Shown in pieces: positions 32,870-36,006 of a stretch of DNA of 64,000 nt (position 1 is the stretch's first letter; every line of letters begins with the position of its first letter). The translations under genes and the position numbers were made by a program. The stretch lies in contig NZ_SMLZ01000116.1 in the NCBI RefSeq assembly GCF_009711415.1, forward strand, positions 65,000-128,999, read 5' to 3'. Under the pieces are notes generated by a model, which saw only the letters and a program-made list of their open reading frames with translations, searched no databases and had not been told where the DNA came from. The DNA comes from Roseibium denhamense (GTDB lineage: Bacteria; Pseudomonadota; Alphaproteobacteria; Rhizobiales; Stappiaceae).

Positions 32870-32900
32870 GGAGTTAAGGCTGGTCTTGAGGCCTACCGGT

Positions 32901-32992
32901 CCCGGCTCAACCGGGATGACAAAAGCTGGGGTTTTTGCGCCCCCTCTTCGGTCATCCCGGACAAGCGCAGCGCGATCCGGGATCGGAGAGCC
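32901..32992. repeat. inverted-pair repeat, copy A
   Basis: A short left arm, 32901-32920, ends in CCGGGATGAC. A 30-nt spacer and a 42-nt right arm (32951-32992) follow, starting GTCATCCCGG and ending GATCGGAGAGCC. The arms pair over GGGATGAC/GTCATCCC. The right arm is the reverse complement of the left arm of copy B at 40 of 42 positions. Confidence 0.85.
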
Positions 32993-33021
32993 AGCGGCCT
33001 GTCTAAGGAGAAGCATAAGCG

Positions 33022-33309
33022 GTGTCAGCCTGGGTCTACATCCTTGCGTCAAAGCCCTATGAAACGCTCTACACGGGCGTCACCAACCACTTGGCCAGAA
33101 GGGTTTATGAGCATCGGGAAAAACAGATCGAAGGGTTCACCAGAAAATACAGCGTAAGAAGTTTGGTTTGGTATCAGGAATTTTATGAATTCGCCGATGC
33201 CATACAGATGGAAAAACGGATCAAGCGCTGACGGCGCCAGTGGAAATTTGAACTGATAGAGAAAGATAATCCGGAATGGAGCGATCTTTATCAGGACTTG
33301 AACAAGTAG
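33022..33309 (+). pseudogene. GIY-YIG nuclease family protein, interrupted by TGA
   Basis: GTG 33022 has AAGGAG upstream. The first 69 residues contain WVYILASKPYETLYTGVTN (GIY-YIG motif as VYI-YTG), then RVYEHREKQIEGFTRKY and the family Glu region (FADAIQMEKRIKR). A TGA at 33229-33231 then stops the frame. The same frame continues RRQWKFELIEKDNPEWSDLY to TAG 33307-33309, exactly the usual family end. Homologues typically have Trp here (KxWRRxWK), so a single TGG to TGA change explains the break. The intact protein would have 95 residues. The truncated form still has the core but loses the last helix. Confidence 0.8.
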
Positions 33310-33313
33310 CCGG

Positions 33314-33444
33314 GGCTCCCCGATCCCGGATCGCGCTTCGCTTGTCCGGGATGACGACGGACATTTTTGGTGGATTGGGTCGCGTACTGTCCACTGGTCT
33401 TTGTCATCCCGGACGAACAACGTGAGATCCGGGATCGGAGAGCC
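33314..33444. repeat. inverted-pair repeat, copy B
   Basis: The left arm, 33314-33355, and right arm, 33403-33444, are inverted to each other and separated by 47 nt. The left arm is the reverse complement of the right arm of copy A (40 of 42 bases). The right arm matches copy A's right arm in the same orientation (35 of 42), with the differences confined to the middle and the conserved ends GTCATCCCGGAC and GATCCGGGATCGGAGAGCC kept. Confidence 0.85.
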
Positions 33445-33507
33445 CGACGGTGACCGATCAAGACGGATAAACAAGATTGCGAAGAACGAACGCATGAGGG
33501 GAACAAC

Positions 33508-35886: not shown

Positions 35887-35908
35887 TTTGCAGATCTTCA
35901 ACGAGCGT

Positions 35909-36006
35909 GATCCCGGCCGAAGCTCCGCTGAGAGCCGGGATCGGGACGCCACAATCGCCCTTGAGCCCCACCGATACCGGATCCCGCTTTGCTTGTCCGG
36001 GATGAC
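35909..36006. repeat. repeat copy C (single arm) with adjoining hairpin
   Basis: The arm at 35973-36006 ends in GCTTGTCCGGGATGAC and matches the left arm of copy B at 31 of 34 bases. Just before it, GATCCCGGC (35909-35917) and GCCGGGATC (35934-35942) form a perfect 9-bp hairpin built from the same GATCCCGG word. It lies between the ABC ATPase and first permease genes of the pyrimidine operon. Confidence 0.75.

Follow-up and report, generated by a model that had tools for sequence, protein, structure and literature searches.

What is a small nuclease gene doing inside a pair of inverted repeats? The question is raised by a 64,000-nucleotide stretch of the Roseibium denhamense genome (the window; contig NZ_SMLZ01000116.1, positions 65,000 to 128,999, of a genome of 4.8 Mb in 116 contigs), in which a GIY-YIG nuclease gene is flanked on both sides by 42-nt repeats in inverted orientation. 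A first-pass annotation of the window had seen in this a system resembling REPINs, the hairpin-forming inverted pairs of repetitive extragenic palindromes (REPs), with a different nuclease in place of the REP-associated tyrosine transposase (RAYT). That idea holds for the association of nuclease and repeat and for its specificity, as judged by the boxing of the genes, a Mantel test, a table of clades and the covariation of gene and repeat. The best explanation for the data is that the window gene belongs, together with its arms, to a widespread two-part system, in which small stand-alone GIY-YIG nucleases of about 95 amino acids have, clade by clade, their own family of GTC-tagged palindromes (REPs of the CGTC superfamily or closely similar variants).

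In the part of Di Nocera et al. (2013; PMC3733652) available to us, REPs are split into a GTAG type, served by RAYTs, and a CGTC type, which is chiefly alphaproteobacterial and takes in dRS3 of Neisseria and RPE-6 and RPE-4 of Rickettsia conorii; tyrosine and other transposases were screened, and the CGTC REPs are described as elements that 'apparently lack a dedicated transposase'. A nuclease that lies inside the repeat pair and matches it clade by clade is a concrete candidate for the enzyme which that text leaves missing. We propose, with a probability of about 0.7, that CGTC-type REPs have their cognate enzyme in this nuclease, a counterpart of RAYT with an unrelated fold, and that it mobilises the repeats with help from the host. 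Its role as mobiliser is offered as the best explanation rather than as a demonstrated fact.

Inverted repeats around the nuclease genes

Stand-alone GIY-YIG genes (E <= 1e-8) were found in 78 of the 87 genomes of the window's family, with 201 matches in total. Boxing was examined in 82 stretches, two from the source genome and 80 around the best-ranked matches elsewhere, which supplied 88 genes in addition to that of the window. The 250 nt upstream of each gene were aligned with the reverse complement of the 250 nt downstream, and a score of at least 18 was taken as an inverted flank match. Such matches were present at 58 of the 89 GIY-YIG genes and at 2 of 245 control open reading frames from the same stretches; flanks of different genes paired at random passed the score in 615 of 2,992 cases, as is expected for repeat families. 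A collection of named loci (80 loci with 84 genes, the flanks being long enough in 82) gave inverted matches at 66 of the 82 genes that could be tested and at 1 of 153 mock blocks. Ten of these loci were family loci already used, and with those removed the counts were 55 of 70 genes, of which Mesorhizobium contributed 28 of 29 and the others 27 of 41, against 1 of 130 mock blocks. The expectation that such genes should lie near repeats more often than chance was thus confirmed.

The flanks also have a characteristic content. Hairpin cover within 100-300 nt of the genes is about eight times the background. Of the 216 hairpins situated no more than 250 nt from the genes, 185 have GTC only a few bases away from the stem, versus 78 of 350 beyond 800 nt; GTAG stands next to the stem in only 4 of the 216. 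Arms in convergent, head-to-head pairs were seen in the source genome and among the places listed in relatives. At four loci (L078, L081, L085 and L103) the nuclease genes occur as tandem pairs with starts 538-726 bp apart, most of them with arms of their own.

The enzyme is conserved at its core. The two Tyr and the Gly, Arg, His, Glu and Asn residues are kept in 258-262 of 261-262 proteins, with the first motif's Ile present in 200 of 262, in a set that includes the ten named loci already counted in the family and whose members are not all distinct. Alignment A1 was used for the scan of named genomes; the 15-row alignment A2 contains one protein twice. The GIY-YIG domain occupies residues 3-75 of 95 and leaves no space for another large domain. 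Among the 149 family genes 143 are intact, the window's copy being one of the six with a stop, and the ratio of nonsynonymous to synonymous substitution (dN/dS) has a median of 0.10 and a maximum of 0.27 over 159 non-independent pairs, a sign of purifying selection. Selection thus acts on a working nuclease. Its presence is patchy, with 0-8 copies per genome in the window's family and as many as 11 in the class as a whole. The nearest solved structures are those of the UPF0213 proteins 1zg2 and 1ywl in the Protein Data Bank (PDB). A phage origin of the gene was considered and rejected, as no relative of query P0002, the sole query, was found in 50,697 phage records at E <= 1e-8; nor did any of three proteins tried against the NCBIfam families score above cut-off.

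Matching of nuclease clades to repeat families

The source genome itself contains two further stand-alone GIY-YIG genes (C73 and C39) and one UvrC-length frame. Both genes are also flanked by palindromes, each of another family than the window's: the q1 type, GTCAT-N6-GCTTGACC-N5-ATCCAT, at C73 and the q2a type, GTCACCCCGG..CCGGGGCCYACTCG, at C39. The arm pattern GTCATCCCGG..CCGGGAT has 28 matches in this genome, many of them as convergent pairs, and its reversed control none.

The same division of repeats between nucleases is found across the family. A tree was built of 149 genes, including that of the window, from 142 fetched stretches, which took in all but two of the matches listed, and the window, with 52 genomes fully assigned; four clades were set by chosen tree seeds and have support values of 0.998 (q1), 0.992 (q3, the window's), 0.45 (q2b) and 0.36 (q2a). 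The clade's own arm is carried by 23 of 24 q1 genes, 23 of 23 q3 genes, 17 of 17 q2a genes and 20 of 24 q2b genes, with two off-diagonal entries, which amounts to 83 of 88 genes in a table that is partly circular, the arm patterns having been drawn up after the flanks of these genes had been viewed. A fifth pattern, q2c, was kept outside the table and matched one q1 gene and one q2b gene. Of the 61 genes outside the four clades, 48 have none of the four arm families, and the remaining entries are ten for q2a, two for q3 and one each for q1 and q2b. These genes most likely have arm families of their own, because 34 of the 61 show inverted flank matches.

The Mantel test is free of that circularity, as it uses no preset families. 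Protein identity and arm similarity are correlated at r = 0.51 over 10,285 pairs, from which 741 pairs with homologous outer flanks and pairs sharing one stretch had been removed, and the highest value in 999 permutations was 0.04. Arms are shared by about 1 in 117 pairs of genes inside one genome and by about 75 in 100 pairs drawn from different genomes of one genus with an identity of at least 75%. The sequence that loci have in common (8-16 copies per set, copies with similar outer 40 nt removed) begins sharply at GTC on both sides, and single positions in the 20 nt outside this edge reach 0.83 at most; the shared unit therefore ends at the tag. GTC stands at the arm edge in 94-100% of the arms of three clades and is often preceded by C (up to 83%). 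This match of nuclease clade to repeat family goes further than the first-pass annotation had guessed.

Repeat numbers follow the nucleases genome-wide. The four arm patterns were counted in the 87 family genomes, the reversed patterns giving 0 in every genome. In the window's genus (45 genomes), the number of a repeat is predicted by whether its own clade is present (p = 4e-4 for q3, 9e-6 for q1, 8e-5 for q2a and 2e-5 for q2b), and 3 of the 12 off-diagonal tests fall below p 0.05, two of those towards fewer repeats. The trend is kept when only copies lying over 1.5 kb away from every assigned gene are counted (p = 9e-4, 2e-3, 3e-4 and 0.02); these within-genus p values ignore relatedness among the 45 genomes. 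For the class, a pattern of the form GTCATNCC..GGNATCCA was used, which had 3,065 matches against 10 for its reversed control over the entire search. It was counted in 384 of 385 alphaproteobacterial genomes, the source genome being left out, with at most 13 candidates scored per genome, so that genes may be missed. At least five repeats were present in 69 of 121 genomes with a strong nuclease match, 5 of 29 with a weak match only and 23 of 234 with none (odds ratio 11, p = 3e-21, a statistic that ignores shared ancestry). Repeats are thus far less common in genomes lacking the gene; equal frequency with and without it would have spoken against the idea of a nuclease-linked repeat family. Within the 42 taxonomic families that hold both kinds of genome, the repeat count is higher with the gene in 26 (sign test, p = 0.011).

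The window locus and related sites

The features of the window locus are collected below. Pfam identifies the product of the gene as GIY-YIG (E = 6.5e-14), and no other long frame lies inside the unit. The annotated spacing of 29 nt from the first arm to the gene start and of 4 nt from the stop to the second arm agrees with the coordinates, and the complementarity reported for the inner arms (40 of 42 bases, here 95%) was recovered by alignment and with a 42-nt pattern; with four free positions and up to three mismatches, this pattern finds exactly the two inner arms in the window and nothing in 100 dinucleotide shuffles. With a looser arm pattern the window yields three arms and 100 shuffles again none, and chance likeness of the arms is ruled out by these counts. 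Rfam was also consulted for the identity of the arms and gave no match at the gathering threshold between 31000 and 37000.

Features of the nuclease-repeat locus in the window
Feature	Position	Strand	Remarks
Outer arm of repeat A, degenerate	32890..32920	-	CCGGGATGAC end at 32911-32920; q3-type match at -101 from gene
Inner arm of repeat A, 42 nt	32951..32992	+	GTC tag; 8-bp stem ATCCCGGA/TCCGGGAT; tail CGGAGAGCC; oriented towards gene
GIY-YIG nuclease gene	33022..33309	+	GTG start; 95 codons plus stop; in-frame TGA at 33229-33231
Inner arm of repeat B, 42 nt	33314..33355	-	Reverse complement of inner arm A at 40/42 bases
Outer arm of repeat B	33403..33444	+	Pairs with 33314-33355 to form a 131-nt REPIN-like inverted pair
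Third copy (arms 35907-35950 and 35971-36006)	35907..36006	.	Solo degenerate inverted pair, without nuclease gene

Each inner arm can be folded as a hairpin on its 8-bp stem with GTC at the 5' edge, the tags in the window arms being GGTC, CGTC and TGTC, and the outer arms turn both flanks into inverted pairs. Repeat B taken whole (33311-33447) forms a single large hairpin with a z of -6.0, which none of 200 shuffles equalled; at repeat A the outer arm is degenerate. Single window arms fold with z of -1.3 to -2.6 and the third copy with -1.9. That copy, which had been reported as lying apart from the gene, is indeed there, in a gap between what we take, from their translations, to be two transporter-like genes. 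The gene itself is bordered upstream by a presumed amidohydrolase-like gene (here hyuC) and downstream by a presumed dihydropyrimidinase-like gene (here hyuA), both named from their translations. Given its in-frame TGA, the window's copy of the nuclease gene is probably dead. A q3 gene is kept beside hyuA in at least 10 of 84 hyuA-bearing genomes from five genera (G000, G004, G008, G010, G012, G032, G042, G047, G078 and G084), and the window unit is therefore old; the copy in the window is decaying.

Of 30 loci fetched around hyuA, hyuC was in view in 27. Some of the gaps between the two genes hold repeats without a nuclease (for example L211, L214 and L217), one of 106 bp (L230) has no repeats by eye and others hold other genes. 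Other GIY-YIG genes are found near hyuA at L210, L223 and L233, and at L227, where the match is weak and apparently decayed; arms of a GTCCCGG type were seen by eye at L233. The second site compared was that of the C39 unit (L034, 10881-11189), which lies between genes that we take to be a phage-like terminase and portal, conserved in relatives and possibly part of a gene-transfer-agent cluster. The gap here is 927 bp in the source genome versus 27, 27, 33 and 44 bp in G056, G042, G058 and G053, and in the other nine of the 13 relatives that could be judged (15 fetched) it holds 111 to 938 bp of other sequence. The comparison of occupied and empty sites suggested by the first-pass annotation thus shows that the C39 unit is absent from this site in relatives; a clean insertion event is not established by it.

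Homologues with repeats were also found further afield. A strict tag-and-hairpin rule, applied to 29 class loci (the locus of the source genome being dropped from 30), detects arms near 19 of them and on both sides in 10. The nuclease gene of Azospirillum lipoferum (L394, 1489-1782) has repeat pairs on both sides and lies between sufB and sufC. In a plasmid collection 30 records matched, and 10 of 14 chosen distinct loci pass the inverted-flank test versus 1 of 27 mock blocks; the failures are R. tumorigenes, Sinorhizobium K101, Photobacterium and Aeromonas, the last two with tagged repeats nearby. Outside the Alphaproteobacteria the test is passed by Nevskia (score 27) and by a metagenome-assembled genome of the Planctomycetes (30) and failed by Massilia (11) and two Ignavibacteria loci (11 and 9); one Ignavibacteria locus has tagged palindromes on both sides by eye. 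A Neisseria gonorrhoeae record (L390, L404) carries an intact homologue, 3 nt after whose stop a palindrome of the form GTCATTCCCGC..GCGGGAATCC begins, and 19 such palindromes occur in the 50 kb around it against a mean of 0.02 in 50 mononucleotide shuffles; the CGTC-1 repeats of Neisseria are equated with dRS3 in the available text of PMC3733652.

Some further loci are recorded here. On a Planktothrix plasmid (L391) a GIY-YIG gene with GTCATTCTGAG-type repeats on both sides has as its neighbours a gene for a restriction enzyme on one side and drmA, a DISARM gene, on the other. Four genomes (G363, G441, G354 and G180) have 49-140 copies of the class-wide repeat and UvrC-length GIY-YIG frames only. 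Of seven stand-alone genes examined from repeat-rich genomes, six (L346, L347, L363, L364, L365 and L368) show no inverted flank match. The seventh, L345 (G369, approximately 1500-1720), belongs to a more distant GIY-YIG subfamily; a palindrome of an unrelated kind, CCTCATCCTGAGGTGC..CCTCCAG, and the reverse complement of that palindrome enclose it (inverted score 39). Its sister gene in G369, L364, has such a palindrome downstream only. L345 is possibly a second pairing of repeat and nuclease, and if so would widen the principle beyond GTC tags.

Explanation, alternatives and known systems

The full unit consists of arm, nuclease gene and inverted arm, and the short form of two inverted arms without the gene, as in a REPIN. 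We consider it most likely that the nuclease recognises its cognate hairpin, tag and stem-loop together, in single-stranded or extruded DNA and nicks or cuts at the tagged edge, and that the freed or broken end is copied into a new intergenic gap with the help of host replication and repair. Though different in fold, the nuclease would thereby play the part for CGTC-type REPs that RAYT plays for those of the GTAG type, and the window copy would be an old insertion between two amidohydrolase-like genes that is now decaying. A bolder version, which we hold only tentatively and at slightly less than even odds, makes this a pan-bacterial class of mobile element with a GIY-YIG nuclease as its sole enzyme. 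Such elements would have made, and would still maintain, most CGTC-type REPs, including the intergenic palindromes of Alphaproteobacteria, those of dRS3 type in Neisseria and those near homologues in Planctomycetes, Ignavibacteria and cyanobacteria; each clade would read its own hairpin and move without a DDE, HUH, tyrosine or serine recombinase. CGTC-type palindromes occur in all orders of Alphaproteobacteria and several other phyla. If the nuclease is indeed their enzyme, nucleases of unrelated fold have given rise to bacterial repeat families on two or more occasions, and a hydrolase of the GIY-YIG type can drive the dispersal of DNA with host help alone.

A number of observations weigh against the proposal that the nuclease mobilises the repeats. 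GIY-YIG enzymes are hydrolases and are not known to carry out strand transfer. Flank matches in direct orientation are as common as inverted ones in the family (58 of 89 genes versus 3 of 245 controls) and occur at 36 of 82 genes of the named loci, because many flanks contain whole inverted pairs or duplicated stretches; a simple unit with terminal inverted repeats is therefore not the sole arrangement. The clades q2a (0.36) and q2b (0.45) have low tree support, q2a arms also accompany 10 of the 61 genes that fall in none of the four clades, and specificity is weaker across genera, where about a third of the pairs at 65-80% identity share an arm. The link of nuclease and repeat is not strict. 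In the families with both kinds of genome, those bearing the gene have fewer repeats in 10 of 42 and equal numbers in 6, and the class-wide pattern is missing from 26 of the 121 gene-bearing genomes, perhaps through a limitation of the pattern itself. Fifteen genomes with at least 10 repeats have no strong GIY-YIG match; a PF01541 search of these finds a stand-alone gene in five (G167, G464, G369, G452, where it is weak, and G375, where it has 329 amino acids) and UvrC-length frames only in the other ten. Similarly, of nine family genomes without a nuclease match, three carry q3-type arms (29, 5 and 3 copies) and one has two q2b arms, and the same search in these four finds UvrC-length frames only. 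Repeat-rich genomes of this kind possibly hold orphan repeats, have lost their enzymes or use a second enzyme. As for movement, no target-site duplication was found. At C39 no base-exact empty site was obtained, the flanks being too diverged, and the two nearest relatives there, G060 (687 bp) and G035 (533 bp), have long gaps of other sequence; between hyuC and hyuA no clean empty site was found, the gap being occupied by other genes, other repeats or other GIY-YIG genes. Only 9 non-syntenic pairs reach 78% DNA identity or more (pairs of lower identity were dropped); recent jumps of the whole unit are therefore rare, and these pairs did not yield the exact boundaries of the unit.

One alternative is that a free-standing selfish endonuclease homes into repeat pairs, cutting a cognate repeat or spacer so that repair copies the gene in, the repeats being multiplied by other means. 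This would suit a superfamily whose founding members are homing endonucleases (PMC1564403, available part), and also a shared unit that stops at the arm edge, the presence of other GIY-YIG genes near hyuA in relatives (L210, L223, L233 and, weakly, L227) where repeat-only gaps also occur, and the existence of repeat-rich genomes without a nuclease. However, an enzyme that only exploited landing sites would not be expected to multiply them, and genomes with a given nuclease have more copies of the matching repeat, even at a distance from the gene, and mostly no more of the other repeats; genes of different clades in one genome, moreover, almost never share arms. We consider homing unlikely on these grounds.

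The two other explanations are less probable still. Repeats and small genes might both simply pile up in intergenic gaps, the arms acting as terminators or mRNA ends and their match to the genes reflecting shared descent of gene and flank. Shared descent is indeed frequent, as seen in the 741 pairs with homologous outer flanks and the window-type gene kept beside hyuA, but the Mantel signal persists once those pairs are removed, control genes and mock blocks of the same stretches lack the arms, and a local flank cannot account for covariation over whole genomes; this explanation is largely refuted. Marginally less probable again is a house-keeping nuclease of the host that clears hairpins or cruciforms, with repeats gathering near it by chance or for regulation. 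Strong purifying selection and the uncharacterised UPF0213 proteins as nearest solved structures would fit such a role; the patchy presence of the gene, its clade-specific boxing and the position of the Azospirillum unit between sufB and sufC would not.

Among the matches listed by our literature search, no title or abstract opening linked GIY-YIG proteins with REPs; preprints and most subscription papers were outside its scope, and this is no proof of novelty. In the available text of PMC12306157 and PMC6006769, CGTC appears solely within a reference. The accessible part of the 2006 survey of the GIY-YIG superfamily (PMC1564403) gives no homing endonuclease of this type in Alphaproteobacteria, and the term 'palindrom' is absent from it. 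The nucleases described here share the GIY-YIG domain and core residues with the homing endonucleases and with UPF0213 proteins; they differ in being boxed by a cognate repeat, and no intron or intein context was seen at the loci read. Insertion sequences and miniature inverted-repeat transposable elements are similar in having a full unit with terminal inverted repeats together with short gene-less forms, but differ in that the window unit has no long frame other than the GIY-YIG gene and no target-site duplication was established.

The closest resemblance of the repeats is to the CGTC REPs, with which they share the GTC tag, the head-to-head inverted pairs and a distribution mainly in Alphaproteobacteria. 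The q1 and q2b arms have the 8-9 bp stem starting with AT, the 5-nt loop and the CCA tail; the q3 arms of the window fit the stem but differ in their loop (12 nt) and their tail (CGG), and q2a starts with AC, so that both are variants. Loops of other lengths are given for some species in the available text of PMC3733652. For the system as a whole the nearest parallel is that of REPs or REPINs with RAYT (TnpA-REP), termed 'REPtrons' (cf. PMC3116915). In the parts of the sources at hand, the hallmarks of RAYTs are inverted flanking REPs, coevolution and a correlation in abundance (PMC2817692), and the enzyme is an HUH tyrosine transposase whose REPs carry GTAG (PMC8266576). Inverted repeats flank the nuclease here too (58/89 versus 2/245 and 66/82 versus 1/153), enzyme and flanking repeat coevolve (Mantel r 0.51; the clade's arm at 83/88 genes) and the abundance of a repeat type tracks its own enzyme, with exceptions. 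The differences lie in the enzyme and the tag: Pfam returns GIY-YIG only, with no HUH tyrosine domain of the IS200/IS605 type (RAYT genes elsewhere in the genomes were not searched for), and the hairpins near the nuclease genes have GTC beside them in 185/216 cases and GTAG in just 4/216. Because the HUH enzyme and the GTAG tag were both looked for and both differ, we class the nuclease and its repeats as a system that works like REP-RAYT without being a member of it.
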